From: Halichondria panicea | Taxonomy: Eukaryota; Porifera; Demospongiae; Suberitida; Halichondriidae | DNA: 64,000 bases | Assembly (NCBI RefSeq): GCF_963675165.1 | Contig: NC_087377.1 | Coordinates: 5,766,042-5,830,041, forward strand | Reading direction: 5' to 3' | The notes under the pieces: model-generated | What the model was told of the DNA's origin: nothing | Databases searched by the model: none | The model's input: the letters and a program-made list of their open reading frames with translations, nothing else | Position numbers and translations under genes: made by a program | Part shown: positions 661 through 59,455 of the stretch, piece by piece | How the letters are laid out: the number at the start of each line of letters is the position of its first letter | How positions within the stretch are numbered: the stretch's first letter is position 1

Positions 661-1979
661 CTACAACGTTACCATATAGAAACATTATTTATGTGTACAA
701 TTATTTATGTGTACATGCCTGCAGAATAATTATATCAAAACAGAAGAATTCAGTTGACTGTGACTGTGGCGTGTTTATATGCATAAATAATGAACACTGT
801 CCCCAGACTGTGGTGATTGTCAACATGCACTTGAGATGCAAAGTTATCGTATAACGACCTTTTAATGAAAGATCTTTAAAAAATCTTTTGTTACAATCTC
901 AGTACGATGATGTCATGGTACTTACGAGTTCATGAGATATGGATTTTTAAAGTATTTTAAAGCCGGGGTAAATTAGCTTAGGGGACATTCGAATAGGGCG
1001 GGTCTTAAAGCCTAACCAAAAGGAGAGAAGATGTAAGTGTGGACTTTGCCGTGCTGTGCCGTGCTGTACAAGATCATGTTTACCTCAGAAGAAAACTACT
1101 ACTCTCTCACAGAACTCTCACAGCCATCTTTCACCACATGCTCACCACATGCAAAATCACTGATAATGTAATTCATGACGTAATTCACGTGCGCCATTCT
1201 ATGACATCATTAATGATGTAATCAATAAAATTATAAAGCAAGAGGTTTACTGCATGCGCGATATTATGACAGCGATCTCAAAGAATCAAAGAAGCAAATC
1301 AAAGAGAATCCCAATATCAAAGCTTGTAACTGTCATCAGTCTATTTGGTACTACTTAGATAAATGACAAATCATGGCACCAAGTAGGTAGGAACGTATAC
1401 CTGGTTAACAGCACTAGTTATCTGTGAACTATGCTTTGACTCGTGGATAATGGGGATTCATTCACCAACACGATTCATTCACCAACACTTATTTTACCCA
1501 CCCTGTTTGTAATATCTGGACACAAACGAATAATTTATAGTCGAAAAATAGCTAGCAAGGATCAGTAATCAAGCAATCAACAGCCAAGAGTTGTATTTAG
1601 GTTATAATGTTTATATGAAATATATACTGTAGATGTAGTGGTGTACTGATGATTGCTTGCTATGACTTACATTATGACTTTACTGTATCCATCAGTGATG
1701 TGCCTGCTACAGCAGAGGTTTTGTGTTGATGTTGTGATGTTGTATAAAGATACAAGTCTTGACCCATTAATTGTAGCAGAGTACAGCGAATGTGGAACTC
1801 AACCAGGGAGGATTAGGGCGCAGTAGTTTAGAAGGAAGGTGACTACGGCACTCATACGACAAAACGTTGTAAGGGAATATTACGTATTACCATGGATTAC
1901 GTATTACCATGGATCCTAGGCTATACATAATTTTTCCTAAAGTTGCTGTGGAGACTCTTTAATCGAAAATTCCCTAAAG

Positions 1980-2006
1980 TGTGTGTGTGCGCGCGCACAC
2001 ACACAC
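1980..2006. repeat. GT/GC/AC alternating palindrome
   Basis: A run of GT dinucleotides passes through GCGCGC into AC dinucleotides, giving an almost perfect palindrome of alternating purines and pyrimidines. Such tracts can adopt Z-DNA or cruciform structure. It sits just upstream of a retroelement endonuclease fragment. Confidence 0.8.
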
Positions 2007-2031
2007 ATTATGCGTGCCCCATTAAGTAATG

Positions 2032-2222
2032 TCCATTGTCCTAGGTGACTTTAATGTCGACATTCTCATTCTTACCAACACAAATTCACAATTAGACACG
2101 TTAATGCGTTTTTTCTTCCCACTACAGACAATGGTACTCTTATAGACCATGCAATAGCCCAGAACCAGAGCGTGTTGATACAACTACTCAGACCATGATG
2201 CAGTTCTATTTCCCTTGAATAT
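2032..2222 (+). pseudogene. Endonuclease/phosphatase-domain fragment of a retroelement
   Basis: Conceptual translation gives VLGDFNVD, then TTDNGTLIDHA, then SDHDAV, in that order but in three different frames. GDFN and SDHD are hallmark motifs of the endonuclease/exonuclease/phosphatase fold found in non-LTR retrotransposon AP-like endonucleases and in endonucleases fused to some Helitron-like helicases. At least two frameshifts are needed, one near the T-run at about 2108, so this is a dead fragment. Which class of element it came from cannot be decided. Confidence 0.55.
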
Positions 2223-2749
2223 AGACTTCCCCTTGTTTTATAACTATGGCCTCAGTCTATGTTCTGAGACAATTTTTACAGCTAGATTAATCGGGTTTAT
2301 TAAACATTCATTTGTACAATAATGTGTTTTACGTGTTTCTTCTCTTATTCACTTTTAGCATACCTACGGTATTGGGACACACACGTTTCCCTTGATGAGC
2401 TGTATGCGTTGATCCTTTCCGTGGCTAAGTGTCTGGACTCTCGGTCTGGTTGGTGCAGGCTGATATTTGGCCCAAAACAGCCACATCCAGCTCACTGGGT
2501 GACAAGTCCATCGCCGACATCCTTATCTCCAGCACATGAGTGAGTGAGAACTGTTTGGAGCAGGGTTTACCTCCGTACAGCGTACACCGCGGTGGCACCC
2601 ATACGTGTCTTAACTTTGTTGTCTTCAGAGGTCGCTGGAGGGAGCGTTGTTGGAGGAATCTTTTCTCCACTGTGTCTGATAACCCTAACCCATCGTAGTC
2701 ACTGAAATCTAAACGAAAGGTAAGGGTTTACAGTTAATGTTTTACCACT

Positions 2750-3470
2750 AGCAGCTGAGAGCTAATAATATTAAAGGTAGCAAAACAAAAAAACAACAAA
2801 AAAAACTAAAAAGTGACAACATAAAATTAATTAACAGACACAAAACTGTAAGTAAGGGCAAGCAGACAATAAGGGCAAGCAGACAATTAGTTATAAGTAA
2901 GTAATTGAAACAGTGCTGCACATGACTAAGTAAACTACTTGCAGAGACAGCACTGCTTGGTAGGAGTGGAACCACGAATGATGATTGAGGCAAAGGGAGG
3001 TTGGTCATGATGGTAATGCCGAGGGTTCGGTTTCGGATTGAGTGTGAACCTTGACGAGTGGAGAATTGATTCCCCCCTGATGATCCTGCGGCACAAGGGC
3101 CAAGATAAGTATTAATCTGACCAGTGTTTGGTACAGAGTCACGCTCCAAACTGATTGATGTCACAAGAAGAAGAGGGGTCCCACACTGCTACGGTAATCA
3201 ATGATTATGGATTGATCTGCTTGGTTTGGTTGAAGTACCTGTATAACAAGCCAAGTTTAGATTTTGCATTAGCGCAGGTGTTGGAGATGTTTTTAGGTAT
3301 TTTGTGATGGTGACTCCAAGGTAGGACAAGGGTGTGATTTGACCTGAGTTTGTAGAGAGTATGATGGACGGGGGAGACTGATTGAGAGTGATTGAGAGTG
3401 AGACTGAGACCCGCAATGTTGACCCAGTTGGCGATGGCATCAATATCTCCTTGAAGATCCAAGGTCCCCT
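2750..3470 (-). pseudogene. Non-LTR retrotransposon reverse transcriptase, C-terminal part
   Basis: On the minus strand from about 3465 downwards, the frame reads LQGDIDAIANWVNIAGLSL, then in a shifted frame PLSYLGVTITKYLK, then SNTCANAKSKLGLLYRYFNQ. This order matches the thumb region of CR1/Jockey/L2-type reverse transcriptases (DI..W..N..LN..K, F.YLGV.I, A...LG.LYR.F). A further open stretch (3164 to about 2748) probably continues the 3' end of the same element. An exact 10-bp tandem duplication at 3381-3400 causes one of the frameshifts; ignoring one copy rejoins the conserved frame. The catalytic part is missing, so this is 5'-truncated or rearranged. Confidence 0.7.
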
Positions 3471-3564
3471 CCCCTGTTTATAATAATTATTTATTTCTTA
3501 ATTAATGGTATTTTTATTGTATGACTTTTATTGCTTGTTCATGCTTGTTCATACACATACGTAC

Positions 3565-3616
3565 CTGTGTCGTCAATGTCGCCACTGTCTTGGTCTTCCT
3601 CCCAAGGTCTAACCAT
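3565..3616 (-). other. Possible orphan first exon
   Basis: On the minus strand an ATG at 3616 opens an acidic 17-codon peptide (MVRPWEEDQDSGDIDDT) that runs into a good splice donor, GTACGTATG, at 3564. Short acidic first exons like this occur in transposase genes, but I could not find a matching downstream exon. This is only a candidate. Confidence 0.25.
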
Positions 3617-3941
3617 GTAGAAATAACATCTTCCAGTGGTCTCTGGTCCTGCTGAGGCAGTCTCAGAATGGCGCTGCTAGACTAGGAAGAATCTTGCTGC
3701 ATGCATTTGCACCTGGCTTCGCGCAAGCAAGCCCGCCCATGTTCACAGGGAAAAACGACGTCACGTACACTACAATGTTTCCGTATACGCAAGAAAGAAA
3801 GCACAAAGTATTAGCATTATATAAAGGTATTGTGCAAAAACTAGAGAATTTGGGCTCGATCTGCGCGAATTGGTCTGTTTTCCCAGAGGTTAATTAAGTG
3901 AAAGTAAAAGTACAACAATGTGTTACTGACCAGATCTAGAC

Positions 3942-4981
3942 CCGGTGTCATAAAATTTTAGGCCCCCCCGGGCCTAGAATTTAAACATTCTAGGGCGGCC
4001 CCTTCTTAAAAGTTTAGCCCCCCCCCCCATTAAATTATTAGCGTATTCAAAAGTACAACAACATAAAACTAGAGCTCGCACACATTTCATGCAACTGGTC
4101 ACAGCACCATTCCATGAATCAGGCCTCATGCAGCACGAAGCACATAGCCTGTGTCAGCCAGATTACAAAGTCAAAGGAAAAGGAAAACTGCCTCATAATT
4201 ATATCCCGGATTTTCAAGGTTGCTGCTTCTGAGCAGCTGGGTTACTCCAAAAAGCTTATCAAGCCTGGACTACTAGAATCTTCAAACAATGAGCAAAGAA
4301 ACTAGCCTAACAGCTATGATTCGAGCTGAGCTATAGTGATGCTATACTGGAGCATCTCCACTTCCATGTAGGAAATCAAAACATATGGAAGAAGATATTG
4401 GAAGAAGATATATGAATTGTTGTCTTTGCACTGAAAATCGTGTGCTTTATAATTATAGTGAATTCACAAAATTTCGCCTCCTTCGGTAGCCAGCCGTTTG
4501 CTGGGGGATAACGCTACCATGTTTTGTCCTGCTGGGAAAGTTGGAATGACGAAGTTGCAAATAATTTTTGGCGGTAGCTATGCACAGTCTTACAGGCAGA
4601 TCCAACATTGCAGAGCTGCATCAAAGGTATAAGCTTGAAGGTAAATCTTTGAATTCCATGATAGCTAACATTTTTGCTAGTACTTTTATACAGAGTCTTT
4701 GCATGCATGTCTCTTGTCCTTTGTCAACTGCTTTGTCAACTAATAGAGCTAACCTTACCATAATATTACCTCTTTGACTTTGTTCATCTTTGTTCTATCG
4801 TGCAGAAAAGGAAAGAGGGGGGGCCTAGAATTTTAACAGAATGGACCCCCCCTTTGACCTTTGTTCTATCGTGCAGAAAAGGATAGCAAAAGAGGGGCCA
4901 GTTGGGGGCCTAGAATTTTAACAGAATGGACCGGCCCAAAATATTAAAATTCTAGGGGGGCCCAAAATTTTATGACACCGG
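3942..4981. mobile_element. 1040-bp DNA element with 27-bp terminal inverted repeats
   Basis: The left end (3942-3968, CCGGTGTCATAAAATTTTAG onward) and right end (4955-4981) are inverted copies matching at 26 of 27 positions. Diverged inner copies of the ends (GGCCTAGAATTTTAACAGAATGGACC) lie at about 4824-4855 and 4906-4935, next to a duplicated segment TTTGTTCTATCGTGCAGAAAAGGA. No transposase was recognised inside, so it is non-autonomous or decayed. A target-site duplication is not clear: TAGAC on the left against TGAAC on the right. The ends resemble the 204-bp element at 40467-40670, which also has GGTGTCATA near its tip. Confidence 0.75.
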
Positions 4982-4989
4982 TGAACAAA

Positions 4990-6680
4990 ATGCGAATTGT
5001 CGTTGTGCTCGGCAAGAGCTAGAATGGTGCCAGCTAGAATGGTGCCAGCTATTCGTACTCATAGACGTTCTTGTGTTTAGCTTTAAATTCTCCATACCTT
5101 TACACCCTTGGGTTAAAAAAGACTCATCATACACTGGTACATACATAATGTTGTGTACATGAATGCAGGACATTTATTATTACTAGCACTTTCAGGATAG
5201 GTTGGTCGTACGGCAATATTTCGTTAGAAACAGCTGAAGCTCTTGAGGAGTAAGCTCAGCACTAGCCTCAATTTAGCACTAGCCTCAATTTGTCTTTTTC
5301 AATGAAGTCGTAACTCGTAAGTATTCCCATGAAATTCGTAGAGAAACCCTTCGTGCATCGTCACAGGGTTCATTTACAGTAGTATACAACGTTGATAGTG
5401 TACAACTTTCTTTGTAAACTATGAAGGAAACTATTGAAGATGAGACAAAAATTAATTACAAATTAAATTGAGGAGGATTAATTCAGCCGGTGGTCGACAG
5501 TGACAGTGACGGAGAGACAGTGACGGAGAGGACTGGGCCAGTTTCGCACCGCTCTTCAAGAAGCTCCTGGAGATCAATGTGACCCACCACTTCCAGACCT
5601 GGTTCTTCTAAGAGCCACCAAATGACAAAATCATCTGAAAGTAGTAAAACAGCTCATGTAACAATCTATAAGGTGTATAACTTTAGGGCTATGAGGCTCA
5701 TTACAAGCAGCTGCCACCTTCAAAAGGGGCAACCTTACCTGATAGCCTTTCCTGATTCTCGCTTCTGTAGAAACCAGGAGCACTTACTCTATCAAGCACT
5801 TACTCTATCAACACCTAGACAACCACCACCACGTATATTCGGACGCTTGGCTTCCGACTGGACAACTATTATTTGTAGTGGATATTATAGCACAGCTACG
5901 GACCTCAAAAAGCTAAGCTACTAACTGCAAAGATAGGGTCCAGAATGTTCGAGTGGCCGGTGAATGCTTGTATTTTCTCACCTGTTCAAGTACAGCTGTT
6001 ACGATTCACACTGTTACTTCTAAAGCCACTGTTACTTTTAACTATTCTAGTCCTACGTCATGTTTTTGTCCCCGCCGCCCACAGACTTCTTTTCATTTTT
6101 TCATCCTCCAAGAACCAAAATGCTCACAAGAAACCATGGCAAGTACAAGTAATCTACTAGTGCCTCCTGTGAAGTCATTCGAGGAGGTCATTCGAGGAGC
6201 TATAACAGGAATTTGCAGCACTCTTATGGACAGCCACTTCAAATCACTCTTTACCGTTAAGCAATGGGGGTAATCACTACTGGTTGACGGCTGGTGGTAG
6301 AAGCGGAGCTAATTTTACACAACTTCATACAAAGAGAAGTGACAGATGCATTGGACCATCCTGGGGCAATTTCAGGGAGGGGTGCTCGAAATAGTTTTCA
6401 GTATTCTCATGTGAGTCAATATGAGGTATGTTTGACTTGGACTTGTGTCGGTATTCTCCTGTGAGGTTCTTTCCAGTCTCTTCTTGCGGGCCCGACGAGT
6501 CAGAGGCATTTTCAAGCCTATACAAATCTAAAAAATAAAACATTGAAGTATAAGCATTTATTTACTTTACGTTAAATGGCATGTTTCTGCCAGCCAATGT
6601 TTCTGCCAGCCAATCAAATTCCAAAAGTAAGTATCACCAGTCCATGTCTTAGAAGATATTCAATGCTAATAAAAACTTTT
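4990..6680. other. No recognisable gene; short tandem duplications
   Basis: Several short frames are open but none carries a domain I recognise. The stretch contains exact tandem duplications of 15 bp (5021-5050), 17 bp (5258-5291), 14 bp (5503-5530), 16 bp (5779-5810) and 16 bp (6582-6613). A plus-strand peptide DWASFAPLFKKLLEINVTHH at about 5530-5590 looks protein-like but could not be assigned. Confidence 0.5.
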
Positions 6681-6685
6681 GCATG

Positions 6686-8952
6686 TGTCACAGCAAATAC
6701 AGTCCGGGCCAAAAATGTGTCCGGCCGGACTAGCGGAAATGGTCCAAACTGATTACTTTTTAGCAGAAACTGTCCGTCTATCAATAGTAATAGATCTACA
6801 CTGTCAAAACCACCAACTTCATTTTACAGCAGCAAGGTACAGAGTCAGTGTAAGAGTAAACAGCAATAGAAGGTAAAACAGCAATAGAAGTTTAATGATC
6901 AGCTACAAATTAATCATGAAGATTTAATAGTGATACATGAATACTTTAATAATAATTATAATTATCATCAGTCTAGTCAGGGAGAACAATTATCACAAGC
7001 TCTTGATTTGATGGGAGTAATACTCGAGTAATGGATTTATCTCAACATAATTGTGATACTTCTGCTTTCTTGAAGGCATCAAACTCATCATGCAGCTTGC
7101 CATTTATGATGACAAAATCCCAAGCTTCGAGGTTCTTTGCTCACTGAGCTCACTGAGGCCAGCCAGAGGGACACATCGACATCTTTACTCAAACAATACT
7201 CCCCTTCTCCCCTTCTCCAAGTGAAATTGTATTATTATACACAGTTCCGTAATTTACTTGAGTCATAATAACTTACATCAAAGTCTTCATCTTCTTCTGC
7301 AAGATACAACTCCTGACTAGCTCCAGTTCTCCACAGATGCTCATCAAAGAGAAGCTCCTTCAACACCTGATCACAATCTTGAGATTGATCAGGGAAAGCT
7401 GCAGGGTCAGCAAAATTATCAGGGACAGCAGCATTAAAGCTATCAGTAAAGCTATCAGTAGAACTATCATTGGCAGTGGTTGGATCATCAGGAATGGCAG
7501 GATCAACAGCAGCATTAGAGCCATCAGTAGAACCATCATTGGTAGTGGTTGGGTCATCAGGAATGGCAGGAGGGACAGCAGCATTAGAGCCATCAGAGCC
7601 ATCAGGGTTGGTAGTAGAACGACCGCAGGTGACGGTGGTTTGACCATCAGGAGTAAACATTATAATTCATGTATGATATTTAATACTATATACCTTGTAG
7701 TACAGCTTTAGCCTAGACGAGTAGTCTTCAGCACAGTTCCACTTGCATTCTTCAGCTCCTTTGTCCAGCCTCTCAGCACGGACCCAGTCCAATTTGGATC
7801 AAGTTTTCCTCCTTTCCTAGTTGTTTTTCGAAGATTTCTCAACAACACCTATTTTAAAGGAAGGAAGAACATGCTTGGAATCATAGATCCTCTTCTGCTT
7901 ATTCTAAGCAACTTCAATCTTGGCTGAGCGGATGTCTCTACAAAGTTCTGTGCTTTGCAACAGTGTCATCGAAGGCTTCATTGGAAGAAAATCCTTCCTC
8001 TTCACTTTCACTTTGAGCTGTAGTGGAGGTTGCGACCATACAGAAGCTCGAAGGGAGTGCAAACAGAACAGGCTTGATACACAAATCCCAACCACCTTCT
8101 GCAGTGACCGAATCAATGTCTGGTTAAACCTCTCGTCTAGACCATTCGTTTGAGGGTGGTAAGCAGAAGATATTCGCTGGTCAATATGAAGCTTCTCGCA
8201 CAGGTTCGATATAACCTTGTTGATAAATTCTAATGATTGAGGGGCAACTATGAATAATAACAAGGTCATACAGAAAATCTGCTACACTCCCTGCTTCTTT
8301 CGTCTTGAGTGGAAGAGTGGGAAGAGTGGTAATCAGTGCACGTAATGATGTATTTATTCCCATGGGGTGTTTCTTTTAGTGGGCCAATCAAATCAATGCC
8401 GCTGACAGGCACAGGGTGAAGGGTAGCAGGGTAGCTGGTGTTTTTTTAAGAGTGCTATCACAAGTCTTGACATAGTTGTCAATGTCATTAATCATTCCAT
8501 TCCAGTAGTACCTGTATAATATGCATGTATTTCATTACGAGTTTTTTTATACATACAACTGAGTGTAATAATTACTTATCTTCTCCCTCTCCCAAAATGC
8601 CCAGCTAGCTTGTCTGAATGACAAGCAGCTATGATTCTCTTCCTCATCTTTAATCCACTGCCTCTCTCTGCCACTATGAGTGTAGGCTTTTTTGACTTCC
8701 TCCTAATGTTGACTTCCTCCTAATGCTTCTCTTGGCCCCTTCACTTGCCCCAGCTCCTCCTTGAAGATAGTTAAATACGTCCTCGTACTTTACAAACTCC
8801 ATTGTGCTATAGTCAGTTACAGCGCATAGCATCTAGTCATTGTAACCCTCCAGACAATATACGCGACACCAGACAGGAAATGCGACGCGAACGCTGTCCG
8901 GCACGGACCGTTTCTGCGCGCGCAATTGGTCCGGACCTTATTTTCTGTGACA
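6686..8952 (-). mobile_element. Ginger-type DNA transposon (TIR, 4-bp target duplication)
   Basis: The ends are inverted copies: TGTCACAGCAAATACAGTCC at 6686 and, read on the minus strand from 8952, TGTCACAGAAAATAAGGTCC. Immediately outside both ends is the same 4-bp sequence CATG (6682-6685 and 8953-8956), the expected target-site duplication. Ginger transposons are known for TGTNR ends, 4-bp target duplications and a retrovirus-like integrase. Inside is a minus-strand integrase gene with an H2C2 zinc finger. The element is 2267 bp. It is probably inactive because the integrase carries frameshifts, one of them caused by a 17-bp tandem duplication (8692-8725). Confidence 0.85.
7235..8802 (-). 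pseudogene. Broken Ginger/GIN1-like integrase gene
   Basis: The minus strand starts with ATG at 8802 (MEFVKYEDVFNYLQ), a stand-alone integrase N-terminus rather than a gag-pol polyprotein. It then shows the H2C2 zinc finger (CHSDKLAGHFGRGR, and across a candidate intron of about 70 bp, YYWNGMINDI), an integrase-core stretch (VSGIDLIGPLKETPHG, ISSAYHPQTNGLDERFNQTL), and a C-terminal RKGGKLDPNWTG-like segment near 7830-7790 that lies in shifted frames. A final acidic, serine/threonine-rich tail (7660-7235) may be the last exon. The 17-bp duplication at 8692-8725 breaks the first exon, and leaving out one copy reopens the frame into the zinc finger. A deletion follows the YHPQTNG block. The enzyme would have joined transposon ends to target DNA in the nucleus. 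Confidence 0.8.
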
Positions 8953-9400
8953 CATGCATTTGCATGCATTTACCCAAACAGAAACAGGTCAAATTACATG
9001 AAATCAAGACAAAAACAGCGCCTTACCTTGCACAAGGCGCACTGGCATATGAACAAAACCTCCCTGAATGGTCGCCTCTTCTAGCAGAGTTTTTCGTGCA
9101 GCTGAGTTAAACGCTTTTTCTCTAACTAATTAAAAAGCAGATTGATCAGTCATCAGCCTATCCCTGAACAAATATAGCCTAGACTTACATCAACAGATAG
9201 CGAACAAGAGATTTGCAAGATAGTACAAAGATAGTTGTTGCATGTTAATCGTGATATACAAACTCCGTTCTATGAGCCATGTGTTGTTTCTTGAATCAAA
9301 AATGGAATCCAACTTGAGGTATATTTAGGTACAGAATTTTAGGTACAGATGTATAATTATGTATTGGTTTATGCTTTAATCTAATATCAATTTCCCTGTA

Positions 9401-9615
9401 GGCCATGCAGTTATAATCAGTACGACAAAAGCTGCTTAGAGAAAGCTATATCTGAGCTTGAGAAAGGAACTATTCCTAGTTGTGCAAAGAGCTGCTTTAG
9501 ATCGACTCCCACTTTAAGGAAAAAGTTGCGCCTAATGCAAAGCCTGGACCTGCACCTGCACCATATCTCAGCATTGAGGAAGAGGAAGCATTGAAGTTTA
9601 CTTTAAACATAACAT
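9401..9615 (+). pseudogene. Pogo/Tigger-type transposase DNA-binding fragment (psq HTH)
   Basis: After a good acceptor (TTTCCCTGTAG) the frame reads YDKSCLEKAISELEKGTIPS, STPTLRKK, then in a shifted frame KPGPAPAPYLSIEEEEALK. This is the usual order of the psq/CENP-B-type helix-turn-helix of pogo-like transposases followed by the GP..YLS.EEE linker. A frameshift and a CCTGCA doubling separate the two halves. No DDE domain follows, so it is a remnant. Confidence 0.65.
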
Positions 9616-9949
9616 GTAAACATAACATGCGTGATAAAATTATATGTGATAGTACTTAGGGAAAAGGGTCCTTAAGCTACAAAGTATAAAATTGAGTTTT
9701 ATTGCTTAATTGGATGGAGCAGAGCTTTGGCTTCAAAATGATACCGAATTAATTGAACAGTGAGGGTCACGTTTTGAGAAATCAACGTTTAAAGGTTAAT
9801 TTCTACATTCAAAAGCAGGCAGTTAGAAGAAAGGTTAAGCTTTGCATATCAAAAAAAAAGCCTCACTCTCCACTACAAATTGACCCTTTTCTTACAATCA
9901 ATTATGCTCTTGTTGGCAGGCACTTGTCACACAACTCAGGTCTTAAACT

Positions 9950-10371
9950 GTAAGTTCTTTAATGTACTCTACTGACGTTATAAATGACACATCTTGACAT
10001 ATTGCACGGATTAAGGCTGATGGGAGAACAAAATCAACACCTAACATTAAAAAGGAGGGGTGATTGGATAAATGATTGGATAAAAAATTGTCACGCTCTT
10101 TTGTCAACAATTTTTCCACTCTGACACCCTTGGTGGTAGTAGGGGCTGGTAGTAGGGGCTCTAAGCGCGCAATGTGATCTGGCAATCATACATCACAGCA
10201 GGGACTATCAGCTGAGGCTATGGTGAGATTCTCAACAATTTCCTCCTCCTAAAGTTCTCTGTGTCTATACAAAAATCTTTTACCAAAGAGTCGATTTTCT
10301 TTTGCTTCGGACTGTAGCAGAGATGGGCACGGGCAGGAGATCTGTCACGTCCTGTACGCCCACACAGCTAC
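9950..10371 (-). pseudogene. RecQ-like helicase C-terminal fragment
   Basis: On the minus strand, after an acceptor TTTGTAG, the exon reads CGRTGRDRSPARAHLCYS, then KQKKIDSLVKDFC and a stop. GRTGRDRSPA is RecQ helicase motif VI (Q..GR.GRDG..A). Downstream in another frame is SFLMLGVDFVLPSALIRAIC, plausibly the C-terminal tail seen in multicopy RecQ-like genes of marine invertebrates. A 13-bp duplication (TAGTAGGGGCTGG) and an 11-bp duplication (TGATTGGATAA) sit inside. No ATPase half is present here. Another RecQ N-terminal piece lies at 49698-49868. Confidence 0.6.
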
Positions 10372-11468
10372 AAAGGAATGAACGTACTAACGCTAATTGG
10401 TACATCCACCCTATAACCAGCCTGATATCCATCCCCTACACGTAATAGATAGAGTGTACTGCATAGTGTACTGCATAGTTGCAACAATGCCCTGAAAATC
10501 AGCCTTTCCTTGGTGAAGTGTGTCAGCGATGTTCCAACATAACTATGAGAATGTACTTGCACGCTTCTATCTTTCAAATGTGGAGTGTATCTACCCAAGA
10601 AGAAGCGTGTTTTCGCAGGCTTCTGTAGCTAGGAATGCAAAGCGTCCTAGCAAAGCGTTCTCTTGCTGCTACCCTTGGACAGCAGAGAGGAGCAGGAGCA
10701 GGAGCAGGCAGGTGCTGTTCCTGAGAGACAATCTGATAAATCCAAAGTCTTCCCGAGAAGTTTTTTGATAAGTTTGTAGACGTTACTTCTTGTTCAGGGA
10801 TATTTACTTGGCGCACTTGGCGCTTGTGATAAATTTTGTTCCGTCATGTTACCAGTGCCAATCTTATTGTCGTAGGCTGATCAATTTTCGCCAGGTCCCA
10901 ACAATACATGTTTGCAGTTTTTCAGAACGGGCATGTTGGTTGAACGGGCATGTTGGTTGAATTCAAGTGTGGAAAATGTGGAAAGCGACAGTGGTGGGCT
11001 AGCTCGCGAACACTCGGTGGACGATACCTTGTCAATCAAAAGTGATTAATTCCATACGTTTTCAAGATTATTGTATATATTGCAGGATCGTCCATATTGC
11101 AGGATCGTCCATGCTTTTACTTGTTCTCCCAAGCTGGTCATGCTGGCTTGGGAAAAGTTAGTATAGGCTCAAGGAAAGACGTGGTTTCCAGTGCTCAGAA
11201 ACAAGTATGAAAGTTCACTTGTACTACTTACTGTATGAAGCAGACAATCTAAGAAAGAACATTGAATATCATTATCAGGTGACCGTAGTCTGTACACACC
11301 AATAACATTTATAATCGTGTTCTCAGAACGAGCACTCAGATTGTACGAGCACTCAGATTGTAACGAAGCGTCACCCTGTAAGCGTCCAGACGTCTTGCAA
11401 TCGAGTCATTCACGTCAGCACTAAAAGACACCATTATTTACAAGAATGCCGAATCATAATATTATTCT

Positions 11469-11510
11469 GGTCAGAATGTGCCATTGTTTTTACAATGGCA
11501 CATTCTGACC
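11469..11510. repeat. Perfect 19-bp hairpin with 4-base loop
   Basis: GGTCAGAATGTGCCATTGT (11469-11487) is followed by TTTT and its exact reverse complement (11492-11510). The flanks continue as AT-rich, imperfectly complementary sequence. It could be the core of a tiny inverted-repeat element or a transcribed hairpin; no other copy was seen in the window. Confidence 0.8.
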
Positions 11511-13974
11511 AAGATATTAATACACAGAGTAGAGTATAGTGTCGTTGTTGGCGGCTACAGCATGCACAGTACAGCCTAAAGATAGCTCATTAAGTAGCTT
11601 TTATTCTCTGCATAATTATGCCAATAGTAAATCAGTTTGGAGGTAATAAAGATTAACCGAATACGCCACCCTAACATCCTCACTCCACCGCTGTTTCAAG
11701 GCTCTTGTAAATTAGAACATTCTGCTATTCAATGAAAAATTGAAAAATGGGTGTAGTTTTTGAACAATTGGTTTTTGAACAATTGTATGTCATACTTAAA
11801 CCCATAGCAACTCATTCATTGAAGTCACATGAAAGCTTGTTGACTGTCATATGCACCTTGTCCTCTACTGAATGACGCTGCACAGCCTATCACAATTATG
11901 CAAAATATGTGGTTGGTCGCGTTGTCCGGAGCCTAGAACACACAGAACACACAGGGGGAGTTGGCGTTGCAGATTTGAAAATTCATCTTAAAACCCTAGT
12001 CCCCTCCCAGCTTGACCCATATCTCACTCTCTGGGATCCTGCAGGTCAGTCGGTGCACTCTAAATAGATTAAAAGTGTTACACAGTATCACATGAAATTA
12101 CACCTCCTCCTCCTCCTCTCAGCGTCATCGTTCATATTCTCAACCTATTTGGAGTGTAGCACATAGGAACATTCTTTATTTGTGTCTTCTTTATTTGTGT
12201 CTAACGATGTTTTGTGGTGTACTGGTACTGGCATTGTTTGTTGATGCCTGTTTTGTCGGGATTTGAATCATCTAAACAATGTGTGGACGAAGGTAAGAAG
12301 ACGTGGGCAAATAATTCGGAAGTTCAGGTTCACATGAAACGGAGCTAGATGGACATGGTGTCAGAGCGAAGTGAAAAACCGGGACAATGGTAGTGCTCTG
12401 AAAGATCCAAGTCAAAGGGTCAAGTTGTTTTCGGTTCAAGCTGGTGCATTGGTGATTCGTTATTGGATCGTGATCGTGGCAATAGCCAAAGTATGCCACT
12501 GATGAGCTGGTGTATTTACAGGCACCAAGAATGTTGCAAAGAAGATGACAACATGGAAATGCAAGCTGAGTAAAGGTACTTGTACTACTGTATGAAGAAC
12601 TGCAGAGCCTACTTTCATTTCCTGAGATCCTGCTGCCATCGAAGCATATGAGGCGACATGCGGAGTCATACTGTCGAGTCACCGCTGTTTCACAACAATG
12701 AAAATTCACCACTTAGTTTATCAGGGTGTAGTACATGATTATGACATGATAATACATTCCAAAAACCACAAGCCAGTGGAAATGGGTCTGGTCTTAGGAG
12801 TATCCCCATGGAAAGGGGAGTTCCTAAGTATGTGTAAAAAAATGTGACTATGCAGGAAGTACACTATGTACAGACTCATCAAAATCACGCGAACACAGTA
12901 CATGTTGTGGCCAACATGAATGGTGTCTGCAGCAAACTTTTGTCCACAAACGCGTTTTCCAAGACTAGCAGTACACTATAAGTATTGATACTGTGTTGTA
13001 ATGGACTAACATTTTTTAAGCAAGTCGTTTGAAAGTGACACTTTGTGACATGTACATTGCAACACTTTTCGGTTGATGCATTCAATTTTACAGATCTGGC
13101 TCCTGATAAGGTACTTCTACGTCACCTAAGTTTCAGTGATAGATTCTTCTCGTTGCTGTGCTGTCGACCGGAAATTTGGTGTGGTGGAGAGTTGTCGGAG
13201 TTGTCGTCAGGTTGGTGGAACTGATCGGCGGTGTTCCAGTTGAGGAGGTCATCTTCGTATAGAGATTATAGGATAGATCCAGAAGAGAAGTTTTCTAATT
13301 CGTTTGTTCTGCTTCCTTTGCTTTTTTTTCTTTATCTCCACTTGTCATCGAAAAAATTACTTTGGCAATGTTGTTTTTGGGATTTTTGGAAGAGCTAAGT
13401 TGGAAGAGCTAAGACTTTAAAAAACATGATATAAAAGTTGAGCCACTAATTCGTCTACACAGTTCAATGGTGCCGCTTGTAAACTATGTTTAGTGTACAT
13501 CATAGTTTACAATGTTGTAGTGATAAGTGCTGTTTGGGACCATGATGTTTCTTACAAGCTGTCAAATGATGTCAGGATTAAAATGATGTCAGGAGGACTC
13601 TTAATGGTATTCGGCTAGGTGGCAGTATGGGCACGATGGGCACGACAACGACTTGGACTGCGCATGACGCACAGACGTAGGCACAGAAATTCTGGCTGTT
13701 TCTAGGTTAGCTATTGGCATTGGTGCTTGATACGAGATCGTTGGCCCATTCTCACTAGATTTTTTGGCCACCTTTTTTGCTAAAATATATTGCATTTTTG
13801 CAGAATTGTGTGGGATGCCTTTGTGGCTCATCCAGTCAACGGAGAAGATTTCGTCTAAATCTGCCTGGTATTTGGGCAGCTGTATCTTCTGGTAGATTTT
13901 TTTCTGGTAGATTTTCCTTTACCTAACTGCCCCCTACATATATAGTGTGTATATAGTGTGTTGCATGGAAAATC

Positions 13975-14003
13975 ACAAATTAAATTGAGGAGGATTAATT
14001 TGT
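13975..14003. repeat. 29-bp palindromic motif, second copy at 5458
   Basis: ACAAATTAAATTGAGGAGGA plus TTAATTTGT is flanked by complementary ends (ACAAATTAA / TTAATTTGT). The core AAATTAAATTGAGGAGGATT recurs at about 5459-5482. This suggests ends or remnants of a dispersed short element. Confidence 0.6.
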
Positions 14004-15274
14004 AACTCATGCAGTGCTTGCTTGCTCAGGACGTCCCATCACTGTACACCAACCATCACTATACACCATCACTGTACACCAAGTACTTGCCGTAGAGGAT
14101 AATTAGAGTAGATCACAAATCGCCAAATTTTGAATAAACACACCACGACGTACAATAACAACAACAACAACATAAAATTGCATGTACTTAACACAATTTT
14201 TTTTATTAAGATTGTTGATTATTGAAAGATTCATCCAACAAGATTGTGTGCATGTGAGCAGCATGTTTCTTGTTGCTAAGCAACTGTGCTATATAGTCCA
14301 GTGGGATATGGATTCAAGCTGATTCAGAACTAGATTCGGACACTCCCCTCTGAGACTATACATGATGTGGTACCTACCGACATTGAATGACAAATAATAC
14401 CCACTGCCGTAGTATTAATGAAGTAGACGACATAGGTTTTTAATGCAAAAGTATTTGCAGTATTTGCAGTAAGTTCGTAGTCTATAATTGTTGTATTGAC
14501 CTGTCTTCATTACTAATTTCATATGTTCCAATGTTGTGGAGCGCTCGAGTGGATTTCATTGCAAGTAACTGAGATATGGAATTATATTTTGGGTTTACCT
14601 TTTTGGCATTGTCAAAAGGATACAGTGGAATTCCCGCATGACCGGTCGGTGCAGTGCCTCGTTGTTCCACCTGATGGTTCAATATCTGATAGACAACCGT
14701 GTTTTTTGTTACAAAGCTTTCCATTAAATGTTCTTGTTGATGTTCTTGTTGATGTTCTTTTGTCCAAAGAACGTGTGTTTCTACGAGTTATTCTTTGTAC
14801 AGCACGTCTTCCAAACACAGATGCCAAACACAGATACTAATTTATTTCTCACTTGGCAACAATTTTCGACAAAAATAGTTAGTTCCTCTTTGGTGGTGTC
14901 AATTTTTTTGCTTAAATCAGATAGTATTGATTCAACCTCGTCAATGGATGTAGAGTTGCCAACTCACTACCTCAATGAAAAGGGTGTTATCCATTTACGT
15001 AGATAGCTTGAATGTGTGATCCATCCGTAAACACTTGTTTATGGACAGTTTTGACATTTCTGAATTATAAAATCATTCTCTTCAAATGTAGCATTTGGTA
15101 ATAATGGTGACAAATAAGCTGAACAGATTTTGATGTCACAATAGTCTCTAATCTGCTTGCTGCTTAGTGTTGTTGACAGTGTTGTGTTGACAGTGTTGTA
15201 AGCAGTTAGCAGTTGTTGGATAACATCCGAAACATGATAGTTTGTCTTGCTATGGATTCCATTGACAAACCTTC

Positions 15275-15498
15275 TGTGGAATGTGAACTAATTGTATCAT
15301 GTATTTAGTAGAGTATTCTAGAATGTTCTAGTAGATTGTTTGTACTATGCTAGTTGTTATTAGATACATCTAGAACCTTCTAGGAACTGTTTTGGTGTTT
15401 TTGGTGTTTTGTATAAATACTTAAATACTCCGGTGTTGTTACAATGATCAGTCTTTATGTCTAAAAGTCAAATGACAACAAATCTACACGATACTACA
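15275..15498 (+). mobile_element. Putative 5' LTR of a Gypsy-type retrotransposon
   Basis: The segment starts TGTGGAATGTG and ends CTACA, satisfying the TG...CA rule, has a TATA-like GTATAAATAC at about 15411, and is followed directly by TGGTGGCAGCGG (15499), which looks like a tRNA primer-binding site. The gag start follows at 15518. No matching 3' LTR was found, so the boundaries are inferred. Confidence 0.5.
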
Positions 15499-15517
15499 TG
15501 GTGGCAGCGGTGGAACT

Positions 15518-16400
15518 ATGGCCCACTTACGTCTACAACCTCTTGAGCCGTTTAACTTTCGCAACCCCAATGACTGGCCTCGATGGAAACGCCGGTTTGA
15601 GCAGTTCAGAGAAGCGTCCTCTCTGACAGACGACAGTGCCAGAAAGCAAGTTAATACTCTTCTGTACTGAAGAAGCAGATGCGGTGTTATCATCTACGAA
15701 TGTAACCGCAGAGGAGCGTGCTGTCTATGAGACTGTTCTCGAGAAATTCGACGCTTTTTTCCAAGTGAGAAGAAATGTGATTTTTGAACGGGCACGATTC
15801 AACCAACTCAGTGGGGAACAGTACATAATGGAACTGTACAAGTTAGCCGAAAGCTGTAACTACGAAGGACGAGATGATGCAACTGGATGCGCAGCGCTCA
15901 CTCTGGACAAAGCCAAAAAGACGGTACGTCGGCAGTGGGAGAACAAGCAACAACTGCTCAAAGGAACAGTGAAGGACGAATCAAGCTTAGACCAGCGAAA
16001 AGGATTCCGTAAACAATGGAAGGCAAACCCTCGAGTACCAACCAAGTCTAATTGCCAACGCTGTGGGAGAGGCCAACACACTCGTGAGAAATGCCCTCAC
16101 ACGTGTCAGAAGATCACACGTGTCAGAAGAATGTTTTTCCAAAGTGGTAATGAGATGGATGCTGGACACAGTTTCGAACAGCCGTCTGGCTGACACAGGT
16201 TCACCTTGTTTAAGATGGACACAGGAGCGGAGGTCACAGCGATATCGATGGATACTTACCGACACTTAAAACTTACCGACACTTAAAGAAGCCACAGCTG
16301 ACGACAGCTAGCAAAGCTCTATATGGGACCTTCAAGAATCAAGTTGAAAGTAAAGGGAATGTTCATGGCATACTACAAAAATCTCAAGAGTCTCCGCTAA
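15518..16400 (+). pseudogene. Gypsy-type gag-protease remnant
   Basis: From ATG 15518 the frame gives LQPLEPFNFRNPNDWPRWKR and RFEQFREASSLTDDSARKQV, the conserved start of Gypsy-group gag. After a frameshift near 15635 it continues with YETVLEKFDAFFQVRRNVIF and ERARFNQLSGEQY. An internal deletion joins this to a nucleic-acid-binding tail with a zinc-knuckle half (CQRCGRGQHTREKC). A retropepsin start (MDTGAEVTAIS) follows at about 16213. Two 17-bp tandem duplications fall in it, at 16097-16130 and at 16254-16287. The second shifts the protease frame, and ignoring one copy restores it. No reverse transcriptase follows. Confidence 0.75.
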
Positions 16401-20256: not shown

Positions 20257-20364
20257 ATTTTGTATTGTGCCACATCAATTAATTATATAATTACAACAAT
20301 ATTTATTGTGACGAGGTATTTATTGTGACGAGGGTGTATACACAATGAACTAAAAATTCGGTTG

Positions 20365-53952: not shown

Positions 53953-53991
<39 letters not shown>

Positions 53992-56090
53992 GTAGACTGC
54001 TACAGCTGCTCAAGGATCAATAAAGAGTTTCTATAGGCTTCTAGTCATGTTTTCTTGGATTTAAATTCGTGGATTTGCGAAATAATGCTTTGTTCTCGAG
54101 TTATGCCTAGTTTTGCTTATTTGGAATGCCTTTTCGGAAGAGCACGTAGCCAAACTTGTTTACCGAGTGTTGCTACTCTACTTAGTACTTAGCTCTGCAC
54201 TAGAATGCTAGCTATTGGTAGCTGCAAGAGTGAGAAGAGAGCTGCAAGGCTCTGCTGATGGAAACCATTAATTTTAGACTTGAACTTTTGGCATCGATAG
54301 TTTTTAACAACAATCATGGTCGATCATTACCCACCCTTTTTTATGTTATGTAGCTTTAGCATCTCCACCGAGGCATCAGCACCTGCGGTGCTTTCATTAA
54401 TAACAGTATTCCCATACTCTTGTTAATTGCTTGACCGATGTTGTGTTCACTGTGTACAACAGAACAGTGTAGAGTGGGGGACGTAATAATATTATTATAT
54501 AGTCTTTCCTAGGGGTAGCTTAAGTACTAAAAGAGAATATTTGTGTATGAAATATTTAAAGTCCTTCTATTTGACCACACTATGAAGCAGCTGCATGGTT
54601 TAAAGACGGTAGCTGATCAAAGTTTTTGTTTTTGTTGATTAACACTAATTCGTGCGTATCTAACACACAGTCAGATATCGGCTGAGCCGTACAATTCCAA
54701 CCCCCTCCTAAGAGGCTACTCTGGAGTGTTCCAGTACCTACTGTGGGAGAAAGAGGTGGCATCTGAGAAACAATTGAGAAGCAAGAAGGAAGGTACGTTT
54801 TTCAGTTCACATTTACCTTATACGTATACATGATGCTAACAATAAGTTTCACTCGCTGATTTGGCATATTATGTCCCAAAAGTAGATTTCTTTCTCAAAA
54901 TCTACTGCATTTACACACAGTGCAAGCTGCATATAATCCCAGTGCATTATGCCATATATGGTACATGTAGTGATGCAACATGCCATCCATATACAGAGCA
55001 CTGGATTGCTTTGATCTGCCCACTCACTGGGCAACAAGTAAATACAGTAACGACGACAGACGTCCACTAACAGTTTCAGGGCTCCCACCACTTAGTCCCT
55101 TACATTCATAATTATTTACACCCTTATTTACAATCTCCATTGTGCTGGCTATTGGTGCATGTCTGCAATTGATGTGTGCCACACATCACATTTCTGTAAT
55201 GTAATATTGCTACCTAAAAACAAAATTATTCCCTGTGGGGCACCTCTGCAACAACAATTTTTGGCCTAAAAATTATTGTAGTGCCTGCATGTTATTCTGC
55301 GTGCAGAAGCTGCCAGCTCTGAATGTTCCGGTAGCAGTGATGAAGAGAGTACACCGCCAAGTGAAAGTTTACTGATCCGAGCATTCTCCAGGCAAGCATT
55401 AGCACATTTTGACACACTTTGGAGCATGAGCTTCTCCCAGCAAGACAACATGGACTACTTTATAGAGGTGCATCACAAGGTTCGTGAGTGCTATCAAGTG
55501 TGTGCATATAATTATTATTTACATATTATAATATTGTACATGTATGTATATACCGTTATAAACACCAGAGCGTTATAAACACCAGAGCGTTTATTTCGTA
55601 GCTGAGATTCCGGGGCTCGGAGTTTAAGCGAGACCAAAGTTTCATCTGTGTTTAGTTGAGACCACTGTGATTGCATGCAGACATTCATCTACTGAGGGAG
55701 AAATTGTTATACCGTATAATTATCGGGTTTCGAATGCGATGTTGCTTCGATTGTAAATTGTCACATACAGTAGCCCTCATATAAAAGTTTCCGTTCCGTA
55801 CCGTTCAATTTGCGTACAACGGTTCGCGTAGAAACGGAATGAAAACGTAGTCTAGCTCATTAAAATTTAATACGGTACGGAAATACCCGTTTTAATTCTG
55901 AAATGACGTTCGCACGTGTAGCTGTATGATTCGCTCCGTAGCTAGCTAGCTGGCTAGTGTTCCAAGAAATCAAGCTGGTGAACTGTTCTACTAAACAAAG
56001 AATCCTCATCCTTCACACACAGCTACGGAGCAAGTACAGAATCCCTAAGAAGCAAGGTCAGGCCGAGCTAGATCTAGTTAGAATAATTAC
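52793..56090 (+). CDS. TAF1A: TAF1A-like RNA polymerase I initiation factor subunit (3' end uncertain)
   Basis: Plus-strand exons 52793-52826, 52893-53056, 53519-53608, 53775-53854, 54671-54792, 55307-55483 and from 55958 onward join in phase. The protein starts MMNEYIGLHDP and continues ISLLLRVLKEQLLNHHYADA, MARRLCLEVVLHDAGLYGDT, LDLCIYIAQSGNVQEAYETL, YSGVFQYLLWEKEVA, and a serine-rich insert. Helical repeats with L..A......A.E.L spacing and the GY.G..QYL.W segment fit TAF1A, a subunit of the SL1/TIF-IB complex that brings RNA polymerase I to rDNA. Identity rests on recalled family pattern, and a TPR-like protein of other function is the alternative. The seventh exon stays open to 56313, but similarity to coding sequence fades after about 56085; further exons may be lost or unrecognised before the hAT element at 56399. 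Confidence 0.6.
53904..54397 (+). mobile_element. Second full copy of the ATGCCTCGG interspersed element
   Basis: It begins TATGCCTCGGTGCGCATGCG, contains a (CTGT)n run at about 53957-53990, and ends CACCGAGGCATCAGCACCTG then CGGTGCTTTCATTAA. It is closely similar to 35566-36098 throughout, implying fairly recent dispersal. In the fourth intron of the TAF1A-like gene. Confidence 0.75.
55555..55588. repeat. Exact 17-bp tandem duplication
   Basis: GTTATAAACACCAGAGC occurs twice head to tail in the sixth intron of the TAF1A-like gene. The identity runs a few bases beyond each end. Confidence 0.95.
55603..55735. repeat. Dispersed repeat of about 130 bp, second copy at 63190
   Basis: TTCCGGGGCTCGGAGTTTAA, GCGAGACCAAAGTTT, GAGACCACTGTGATTGCATG and TACTGAGGGAGAAATTGTTA then TACCGTATAATTATCGGGT recur at 63198-63327 with small indels. 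No known family was recognised; it could be part of an LTR or a SINE-like element. Confidence 0.75.
55767..55930. repeat. Left end of a TACAGTAGCCCTCATATAAAAG element
   Basis: TACAGTAGCCCTCATATAAA then AGTTTCCGTTCCGTACCGTT marks one end of a Tc1/mariner-like MITE (TA plus CAGT tip). Its inverted counterpart is at about 59100-59237. The two may be ends of one interrupted element or two separate copies. Confidence 0.55.
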
Positions 56091-58248: not shown

Positions 58249-58249
58249 A

Positions 58250-59420
58250 ATATGGCCGCCTCATGACTGGGGTACAGAGAGGGCTGTGGTGGCATGGGGG
58301 AACGGGTCTGCAGTAAAAAGAAGCTATAGTCTGAACCCGGCTATATAGAATGGGGGAACCTAGCTACATGGTCACTAGCCAAAGCTTTACCTTCCAAGTG
58401 GTAGATCGTCACCCGCTGGGTTACTATACGGAGGAGGTAGAGAGCTATTAGTAAGGGGAAGAGAGGATGTTTAGTTTATGCATACTAACATTTTTCTTCA
58501 TTAAGCAATTCTACATCTGTAATATGCCTTACCTTGACAACTTGAGCAGTATGAGCTGATTAGTCAAATAATACAAAAAGTCAAACAAGTACTACAAAAC
58601 CATTAAATACATTTTCTTGATCATATGCTTCACTGGCACATTAAGTAAACTAATTTGTGTACTACAAAGGTGCATCTGCTTGTCTATTTGTAGTACACAA
58701 AGGTGCATCTACTTGTCTATTTGTAGTACACAAGGGTGCATCTGCTTGTCTATCCCTCGCACAAAGGAAGCACTGTACATGAATTTGTTATTCTTCAACA
58801 TGATGTTTGAATGATACAGGACATTGTATACGATAGTGTATAATTTATAATGAAATGTTCAACAAAAGTAATAGTACAATCAGATCATAATATAATGTAG
58901 CTGTATCTAAGATTCCAGAGATCCGGTTGACTTGCTACTACCAACTTTCTTATCTTCCAGCCTTGCATGTAAGTTCTGCAGTATTCCCAGTGCTATTTGT
59001 ATGCCCCTGGATTACACTAGAGAAGTTAGTACATTTGTAGCTTGCTTAGTACGTACAGAATAAATAAAAAAAATTATTATTGCTAACTAGCAAATTCCAC
59101 CCGTTTTTTTCTCCGTAGAACGGTGCGTAATTACGGTGAATAATACGCTACCGTTTAGTTAGCGTTTTCTGACTCCGTAAAAACGGAACGTTACGTGCAA
59201 CTGAAACGCAACGGGAACTTTTATATGAGGGCTACTGTAATTCGCGATCGAAAGGAACTCGATGAGCATGAGCATGCAATTTGCAATACTGTATACAGTA
59301 TATATTATGCTTGCTTGCCGCGGCTACTAAATGTTTCATTTTACTGGCAGAGATGGCTACAATTTGAGAGAGGCGTTTTATTAGTAACCATACGTACACT
59401 AATAGTTTGTAACTAATCAT
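58250..59420. other. No recognisable gene; minisatellite and MITE end
   Basis: It contains a 33-bp unit repeated three times at 58666-58762 (AAAGGTGCATCTGCTTGTCT onward, variants in each copy) and the inverted TACAGTAGCCCTCATATAAA end at 59100-59237. No coding domain was seen. Confidence 0.5.
58666..58762. repeat. 33-bp minisatellite, three copies
   Basis: Units start at 58666, 58699 and 58732; the third diverges after TGTCTAT. Neighbouring ACTACAAA/GTACACAA steps create a short repetitive frame that is not a gene. Confidence 0.8.
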
Positions 59421-59421
59421 C

Positions 59422-59455
59422 CCTAAGTGGTGAAGTCTCCTAAGTGGTGAAGTCT
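59422..59455. repeat. Exact 17-bp tandem duplication
   Basis: CCTAAGTGGTGAAGTCT occurs twice head to tail across the 3' end of the gag-like frame on the minus strand. Confidence 0.95.

Follow-up and report, generated by a model that had tools for sequence, protein, structure and literature searches.

Small tandem duplications (TDs) are common genomic insertions, and the breaks behind natural ones are poorly known. In rice, patch-mediated break repair was reportedly proposed for tandem insertions by Vaughn and Bennetzen in 2014. The likeness of the rice case to the locus of the sponge Halichondria panicea described here lies in natural short TDs that are ascribed to nearby opposite nicks; to our knowledge, the rice insertions show neither a sharp single length nor a hot domain. 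A further related process is repeat-induced point mutation in fungi, a mutational decay focused on repeats. The sponge locus shares with it the decay in repeats, the targeting of repeats being putative in the sponge, and differs in that the fungal process produces point mutations, whereas gaps and duplications are found in the sponge.

In embryonic stem cells, breaks with 5′ overhangs are reported to give rise to deletions or TDs via cNHEJ (PMC5730883), and 3′ overhangs are reported to yield TDs through CST-Pol alpha fill-in (PMC8355091). The portions of both reports drawn on here model small TDs as originating from paired nicks (PMC5730883; PMC8355091). TDs bounded by the overhang, deletions alongside them and blunt or near-blunt joins are common to these end-joining systems, as far as those portions describe them, and to the sponge locus. 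The overhangs in these assays (43 and 46 nt) were generated by Cas9 nickase, whereas the sponge TDs are natural, dense and local, with a limit of 17 bp.

A fixed and unusually long stagger of 17 nt is reported for the P element/THAP9 transposase, with cleavage sitting at the element ends and target duplications of 8 bp (PMC7776569). The 17-bp ceiling of the sponge TDs would suit such a stagger, and relatives of the transposase are present in the genome and at the edge of the domain; in contrast to cleavage at element ends, the duplicated 17-mers are unrelated. Among the papers listed in the literature searches, none treats duplications of 17 bp as a process or describes a comparable domain in a sponge.

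Tandem Duplications in the Window and in the Hot Domain

The window, i.e., the whole stretch of 64,000 nucleotides that was analyzed, was scanned for exact tandem pairs with periods of 5–80 bp. All 16 exact TDs of 17 bp claimed in the preliminary description were found again, 14 of them at 1455–20333 and the other two at 55554–55591 and 59422–59456; the start given as 55555 was one base late (55554). In all 16 TDs the two copies are identical. Periods of 10–16 bp are represented by 3–6 exact pairs each, and only four pairs have a period above 17 bp (27, 32 twice, and 39), which look like minisatellites. The earlier impression that periods of 10–16 bp are common, 17 the commonest and almost nothing lies just above is thus in agreement with the scan. 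Minisatellites are also present nearby. Likewise, the claimed rarity by chance was borne out by a third-order Markov model of positions 1–22900 (30 runs), in which the mean per period of at least 10 bp was 0.0 (to two decimals), compared to 14 pairs observed at period 17.

The cluster of TDs extends leftwards beyond the start of the window and belongs to a domain of ~84 kb (C1:5,706,042-5,790,041) that is rich in dispersed repeats. This domain contains 110 exact two-copy TDs of 9–17 bp (86 of 9–16 bp and 24 of 17 bp), compared to 37 (33 and 4, respectively) in 258 kb outside of it, drawn from 14 sampled pieces of 10 kb each and from the flanks (118 kb), with 2 kb at the right border excluded. 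With a minisatellite set aside, the hot slice has 108 TDs, of which 23 have a length of 17 bp and six of 16 bp; none of 18 bp was found. A mismatch-tolerant scan of the 84 kb for units containing all four bases resulted in 22 exact pairs of period 17 and in 5, 3, and 2 pairs with one, two, and three mismatches, respectively; for periods 18–30, all nine pairs obtained have two or three mismatches, none fewer. Several of the substitutions in the mismatched period-17 pairs are located at the unit ends and could stem from the repair itself, and three pairs have an internal substitution.

Among the matches listed, sequences elsewhere in the genome cover 51% of 1-10500, 91% of 10600-11500, 82% of 14500-20400 and 76% of 18900-23400, in a search which left out 11501-14499. 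Furthermore, an LTR retrotransposon of 4.45 kb was identified in the domain, with LTRs identical at 238/238 bases and a 5-bp target duplication, which already bears a 9-bp and a 13-bp TD. Repeat status as the sole cause of the TDs was rejected: the segment of the window at 31.3–32.1 kb has relatives of up to 96–99% and contains no exact tandem pair of at least 7 bp.

The features are compiled in Table 1, which takes in TDs of 13–17 bp; TDs of 9–12 bp were also scanned and are omitted from its rows.

Table 1. Tandem duplications and related features in the window.
Feature	Position	Strand	Basis or remark
Right part of the hot domain	1..24000		TD density and repeat matches
Exact 17-bp TD	1455..1488		tandem scan
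Exact 17-bp TD, 2 additional matching bases	1879..1914		tandem scan
Exact 17-bp TD	2853..2887		tandem scan
Exact 17-bp TD	5258..5291		tandem scan
Exact 17-bp TD	8692..8725		paralog L038: exact unit once
Exact 17-bp TD	10925..10961		undoubled in paralog L031, best unit match 14/17
Exact 17-bp TD	11077..11112		undoubled in paralog L031, unit match 16/17
Exact 17-bp TD	11328..11362		paralog L034: exact unit once
Exact 17-bp TD within open frame 15636-16193	16097..16130		paralog L036: exact unit once
Exact 17-bp TD	16254..16287		undoubled in paralog L036, unit match 13/17
Exact 17-bp TD, also doubled in L036 (C1:6.036 Mb)	16481..16514		paralog alignment
Exact 17-bp TD in a 36-base extra piece relative to L036	16543..16576		best L036 unit match 11/17
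Exact 17-bp TD	17203..17236		tandem scan
Exact 17-bp TD	20300..20333		L037 has the unit once, as a clean site aligned with 381 matches and 4 mismatches
Exact 17-bp TD, outside the domain	55554..55591		tandem scan
Exact 17-bp TD, outside the domain	59422..59456		tandem scan
Exact 16-bp TD	684..715		tandem scan
Exact 16-bp TD	5779..5811		tandem scan
Exact 16-bp TD	6581..6614		tandem scan
Exact 15-bp TD	5017..5051		tandem scan
Exact 15-bp TD	11756..11785		tandem scan
Exact 15-bp TD	12172..12202		tandem scan
Exact 14-bp TD	5502..5530		tandem scan
Exact 14-bp TD	13386..13413		tandem scan
Exact 14-bp TD	15171..15199		tandem scan
Exact 13-bp TD	4386..4411		tandem scan
Exact 13-bp TD	6174..6199		tandem scan
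Exact 13-bp TD	9604..9629		tandem scan
Exact 13-bp TD	10134..10160		tandem scan
Exact 13-bp TD	19349..19374		tandem scan
Exact 13-bp TD, rightmost of the domain in the window	22833..22858		tandem scan
L038-aligned stretch: 42 mismatches, 40 gaps of at least 4 bp (29 being bases missing in the window)	7001..8932		alignment
L031-aligned stretch: 18 mismatches, 16 gaps of at least 4 bp (13 missing in the window)	10632..11160		alignment
L036-aligned stretch: 12 mismatches, 25 gaps of at least 4 bp, in both copies	15306..16657		alignment
P/THAP9-like element homology, ends undefined, right edge of the domain	19445..22378	-	sequence matches
TNP-like RNase H pieces of the P/THAP9-like stretch	20368-20700 and 21461-21676	-	sequence matches

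Boundaries of the Duplications

No boundary motif was found over 24 positions in the 51 unambiguous TDs (lowest p 0.09, uncorrected), and neither a nuclease nor a cut motif was found for the TDs. Bases shared beyond the two copies number 0 in 52, 1 in 25, 2 in 18, 3 in 10, and more than 3 in five of all 110 TDs, which lean slightly to short homology. For the 59 TDs of 13–17 bp the corresponding counts are 32, 14, 6, 4, and 3; here, end homology is near the one-in-four chance, with no lean. In 204 kb, there are 39 TDs of 11, 13, or 15 bp and 19 of 12, 14, or 16 bp. The apparent preference for odd lengths is not significant, with 31 odd versus 19 even lengths among the TDs of 11–16 bp in the 108 of the hot slice (p=0.12).

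Comparison With Paralogous Copies

In the aligned paralogs, 17 of the 18 tested window TDs of 8–17 bp are undoubled, 11 of these showing the exact unit once, and therefore the second copy is new. The remaining one, the 17-bp TD at 16481..16514, is doubled at both loci, which are 254 kb apart; it is therefore inherited and not an assembly slip. This TD predates the copying of its segment between the window and L036. Further TDs, with lengths of 11, 12 and 17 bp, are peculiar to L036. Some TDs also occur in copies outside the domain, one of 14 bp in L034 and one of 8 bp in L035. L034, which has this single 14-bp TD, is as closely alike as the copies L030–L032.

The nine alignments touching the domain contain 128 gaps of at least 4 bp per 161 mismatches, compared to 111 per 754 mismatches in 28 control alignments (odds ratio 5.4). 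Eight distinct gaps in the domain set, three of them in L036, are TDs of at least 9 bp, versus none in the controls. At non-tandem gaps, microhomology amounts to at most one base in 87 of 115 cases in the domain set and in 56 of 103 in the controls. Microhomology is accordingly lower at the domain gaps in a rank test (114 versus 103 gaps, p=0.0004), the p-values for gaps being indicative only, because the alignment pairs were hand-picked and some stretches were reused in both sets.

Apart from 10632-11160, a single paralog decides to which of the two sequences a gap is assigned; at 10632-11160, four other copies retain bases absent from the window, so that the gaps there are deletions in the window. 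Gap lengths show a mode at 7–9 and a broad bump at 15–18 (23 of 115 non-tandem gaps versus 6 of 103 in the controls), without a sharp peak at 17 in the 115 non-tandem gaps of the domain alignments. Cytosine deamination was rejected as well: four pairs of window and paralog have mismatches whose transitions run both ways (C>T 16, G>A 15, T>C 15, and A>G 9).

Origin of the Duplications

On balance, the TDs and the small deletions are probably heritable scars of staggered double-strand breaks which were filled in and rejoined. Both strands would be cut 17 bp apart, without detectable sequence preference, in the repeat-rich domain of ~84 kb and more thinly elsewhere, each break leaving two complementary 17-nt overhangs. 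Full fill-in of both overhangs and subsequent blunt joining would result in an exact 17-bp TD. Partial trimming followed by fill-in would produce the shorter exact TDs (9–16 bp), and trimming past the overhang a blunt deletion. The pile-up and the ceiling at 17 suggest a fixed stagger of 17 nt. We infer that breaks are the cause, that nonhomologous end joining (NHEJ) is the repair and that, at most of the gaps, bases were lost from the domain; the TDs, the excess of gaps and the low microhomology together match the published signature of end-joined staggered breaks. Two Ku-domain matches were found in the genome, one containing an internal stop. Of the three readings offered in the preliminary description, the fill-in of staggered breaks with overhangs of up to 17 nt is therefore favored, and neither the assembly artefact nor the excising element is. 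The deletions alongside the TDs, the domain rich in repeats and the paralogs had gone unnoticed in that description.

Clustered unspecific nicks on opposite strands, arising by damage or base-excision repair in heterochromatin, would be an unlikely source of the same breaks. Nick pairs closer than ~17 bp would fall apart into breaks, their short duplex being unstable, and wider pairs would be ligated; the ceiling would then be thermal, not enzymatic, and would need no special enzyme. By our reasoning, a thermal duplex limit should be soft, and the step from six TDs of 16 bp to 23 of 17 bp and none of 18 bp argues against it. TD boundaries without a motif are in line with such nicks, as is the paired-nick origin of small TDs in the portions of the published work drawn on (PMC5730883; PMC8355091).

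Within the preferred reading, that of filled-in staggered breaks, the cuts could be made by a P/THAP9-type transposase with relaxed specificity, whose 17-nt stagger would set the TD length; this is quite improbable. The ceiling and the pile-up of TDs at 17 fit such a stagger, and the gap lengths have no peak there. The genome contains five P-element-domain matches and 46 TNP-like RNase H matches. Eight of the latter score equally (92.4 bits) and five of these eight have 570-aa open frames, which points to a probably recent family. In addition, the P-like relic at 19445-22378 lies at the right edge of the domain; around it, the search for inverted terminal repeats yielded nothing beyond one 11-mer. 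However, a cut at element ends would double terminal element bases, not unrelated 17-mers, and the unrelated units and the lack of a boundary motif on 51 TDs speak against cutting at terminal repeats. Moreover, 17-nt overhangs from P excision appear to be refractory to NHEJ, according to the portion of the source considered (PMC7826270). A P-like fragment on C15 lies 5.8 kb away from L038, which has no TD of at least 8 bp, whereas L036 and L033 have TDs with no P-like match within 200 kb among the matches listed.

A DNA transposon with a 17-bp target duplication, leaving head-to-tail copies upon precise and shorter TDs upon imprecise excision, would predict the same 17-bp TD and ceiling, and the domain is rich in repeats, but this origin is very unlikely. 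In 344 kb of 131 Mb, 17-bp direct repeats with unlike flanks are not in excess (17 of length 17, 30 of 16, and 21 of 18, at distances of 40–9000 bp), and the papers listed in a literature search name, in their titles and abstract openings, no transposon family defined by a 17-bp target site or overhang. With no candidate element and no excess of length 17 in this sample, the excision scars proposed earlier were not retained.

The other proposal given up is an untrimmed joining of contigs or graph nodes whose ends shared up to 17 bases, together with a closing of gaps to zero, which would have created false TDs and deletions. The exactness of all 16 window TDs of 17 bp, the compatibility of this length with a k-mer graph, and the missing bases, which closed gaps would explain, speak for this artefact, which is nevertheless highly improbable. 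It is opposed by the TD doubled at loci 254 kb apart, by the period-17 pairs with 1–3 substitutions, three of them with an internal one, and by the gap excess in the domain-touching alignments. Furthermore, in three paralog pairs with otherwise 96–99% agreement, the mean spacing of gaps is 29, 47 and 44 matched bases, which is too short for contigs; L030, L031 and L032 (~98% alike) were assembled without any TD of at least 8 bp. The open frame across the TD at 16097 is intact on a contig of 1,414,771 bp, not the one of 18.1 Mb, possibly built from the same reads. Finally, replication slippage or ordinary mini- and microsatellite growth is extremely unlikely, as the nearby minisatellites and the slight lean of the 110 TDs to short shared bases stand against unrelated units in only two copies each, end homology near the one-in-four chance in the 59 TDs of 13–17 bp, and a sharp length ceiling.

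Significance

With one standout length and one scar-dense domain, the overhang length becomes readable from the sequence and the responsible nuclease testable. Transposon islands in the germline might be shredded repeatedly, and their elements thereby disabled, by a nuclease whose stagger is fixed at 17 nt, perhaps a P/THAP9-type transposase working away from the ends of its element; this is a doubtful proposition at present. If it is true, end-joining scars that disable inserted elements would parallel repeat-induced point mutation, with indels taking the place of base changes. Should the scars prove to be transposon-directed, elements in this sponge would be disabled through broken and rejoined DNA.

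Tandem Duplications Are Concentrated in One Domain of Contig C1

The window occupies bases 5,766,042-5,830,041 of contig C1, which belongs to a genome of 131.46 Mb in 39 contigs. The 16 exact tandem pairs with a period of 17 bp, on which the preliminary description was based, were all present on a rescan of the window, and simulations yielded none. A further 140 kb adjoining the window were also scanned. Exact tandem duplications (TDs; two copies head to tail, named by their start) grow frequent from near 5.706 Mb and end near 5.789 Mb on C1 (5-kb bins), with the highest density in the bins at 5.736 Mb and 5.766–5.786 Mb. The resulting hot domain (C1:5,706,042-5,790,041, 84 kb) comprises 110 exact two-copy TDs of 9–17 bp, including 24 of 17 bp, and none of 18–38 bp. 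The other 258 kb of examined sequence contain 37 TDs of 9–17 bp, including four of 17 bp. Since exact pairs at period 17 number four there and those at period 16 none, the length of 17 is visible, thinly, outside the domain too. Two of the 17-bp TDs in the window, at 55554 and 59422, are outliers, and a hAT-type transposase remnant lies between them.

The Duplications Are the New State

Paralogs of several window stretches were identified by genome searches and nine of them (L030–L038) were fetched. Blocks almost identical between window and paralog are interrupted by clean gaps. Of the 18 window TDs (8–17 bp) inside paralog alignments, 17 lack a second copy in the paralog, which contains the exact unit once in 11 cases and only an inexact unit in six; for the TD at 15390, a 7/9 match lies beside the unit. 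L037 shows the site of the TD at 20300 in its clean state, without the duplication. The duplication is therefore the new state and not the product of a loss. L036 (C1:6,035,097-6,036,471) and C1:6,036,489-6,038,212 look like a rearranged copy of the window stretch at 15.3–18.6 kb with the second part inverted, and the damage in the first part is partly independent of the window copy.

Paralog alignments and further features (window coordinates)
Feature	Position	Paralog or unit	Matches	Mismatches	Gaps ≥4 bp
Alignment	15306-16657	L036	1163	12	25
Alignment	7001-8932	L038	1743	42	40
Alignment	10632-11160	L031	461	18	16
Alignment	19998-20400	L037	381	4	2
Decayed P-like stretch	19445-22378				
Dispersed repeat	22887-23076	~190 bp			
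Ankyrin-Roc open frame, 793 aa	46229-48610 (-)				
hAT-type remnant (Dimer_Tnp_hAT)	56591-57535 (-)				
Minisatellite	61351-61668	32 bp			
Minisatellite	62869-62949	39 bp			

An assembly slip, proposed earlier as the joining of untrimmed overlaps, is disfavored by several observations. The TD at 16481 is doubled at two loci, the window and L036 (C1:6.036 Mb), and paralogs have TDs of their own: 11, 12, and 17 bp in L036, three of 9 bp in L033 on C15 and one of 14 bp in L034. None of at least 8 bp was found in L030, L031, L032, L037, and L038. Besides 22 exact period-17 pairs, the domain contains five, three and two pairs with one, two and three mismatches, respectively. Two of these ten lie inside a minisatellite, several have the mismatch at the unit end, which might date from the repair itself, and three (C1:5,739,696, 5,766,012, and 5,780,076) have an internal mismatch. 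Finally, the frame 15636-16190, which crosses the TD at 16097, is intact on a contig of 1,414,771 bp that may share the same reads.

Gaps Accompany the Duplications

Non-satellite alignments were hand-picked from a blast of all examined sequence and the fetched paralogs. The nine domain-touching alignments show 128 gaps ≥4 bp per 161 mismatches versus 111 per 754 in 28 control alignments outside the domain (odds ratio 5.4), a comparison whose p-value is indicative only, since some stretches occur in more than one pair in both sets. Eight distinct gaps of the domain set (three in L036) are tandem copies of at least 9 bp, compared to none in the controls. The non-tandem gap lengths of the domain set have a mode at 7–9 bp and a broad bump at 15–18 bp, which takes in 23 of 115 gaps compared to 6 of 103 in the controls; a sharp peak at 17 is absent. 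Microhomology is lower in this set, with no more than one base in 87 of 115 non-tandem gaps versus 56 of 103 in the controls. At 10632-11160 four other copies retain the bases missing from the window, so the gaps there arose by deletion on the window side; elsewhere, the side of gap origin rests on a single paralog.

Repeat Content and Age

In the four window stretches searched for this purpose, listed matches elsewhere in the genome cover at least 51% of 1-10500, 91% of 10600-11500, 82% of 14500-20400, and 76% of 18900-23400. Repeat status alone is insufficient for TDs, because the window stretch at 31.3–32.1 kb is free of TDs despite its many close relatives. The dispersed repeat just right of the domain has at least about three dozen copies (90–98% identity) and no TD inside it. 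The ankyrin-Roc frame has 992 protein matches, and several of the best 120 are annotated in Halichondria panicea.

In the domain part left of the window, a very young Ty3/gypsy-type retrotransposon (C1:5,759,733-5,764,182) was identified, with LTRs identical in 238 of 238 bases, a 5-bp target duplication and two open frames, one with reverse transcriptase and the other with integrase. Two TDs, of 9 and 13 bp, are already present in it where the two frames overlap; a frame shift is possible only from the 13-bp one. The TD-forming process is therefore recent.

Proposed Mechanism

In embryonic stem cells, 5′-overhang breaks from paired nicks are described to result, by classical end joining, in deletions where trimming exceeds synthesis and in TDs where synthesis exceeds trimming (PMC5730883). 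Fill-in of 3′ overhangs is ascribed to CST-Pol alpha-primase (PMC8355091). If all breaks had the same overhang length L, TDs would be expected to accumulate at L, with shorter ones beside them but none longer. The TD lengths match this expectation for L = 17, from which we infer a stagger fixed at 17 nt. Of the three readings offered earlier, which also included an excising element with a 17-bp target duplication, fill-in repair of staggered breaks fares best, given the ceiling and pile-up at 17 and the accompanying gaps.

It is unlikely that the cutting is done by a P/THAP9-type transposase with relaxed specificity, whose stagger would set the TD length. This group is reported to cut with a 17-nt stagger (PMC7776569). 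The genome contains 46 matches to the P/THAP9 RNase H domain, eight of them of identical score, and five to the P-element domain, and the decayed P-like stretch lies where the domain ends abruptly on the right. We know of no other 17-nt cutter. However, P transposase cleaves at the ends of its own element, the duplicated 17-mers are unrelated to each other and show no boundary motif, and P-like fragments do not mark which other loci are hot and which are clean. Moreover, the 17-nt overhangs left by P excision are described as apparently refractory to NHEJ (PMC7826270). The P/THAP9-like transposon family with eight genome places of equal score looks recently amplified.

For staggered breaks with fill-in, the kind of mutation itself is already known; what is unusual is that one limiting length, a dense domain and accompanying gaps occur together. 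As a rather improbable extension, a nuclease with a 17-nt stagger, possibly of the P/THAP9 type acting off its ends, would shred germline transposon islands and disable their elements by end-joining scars.
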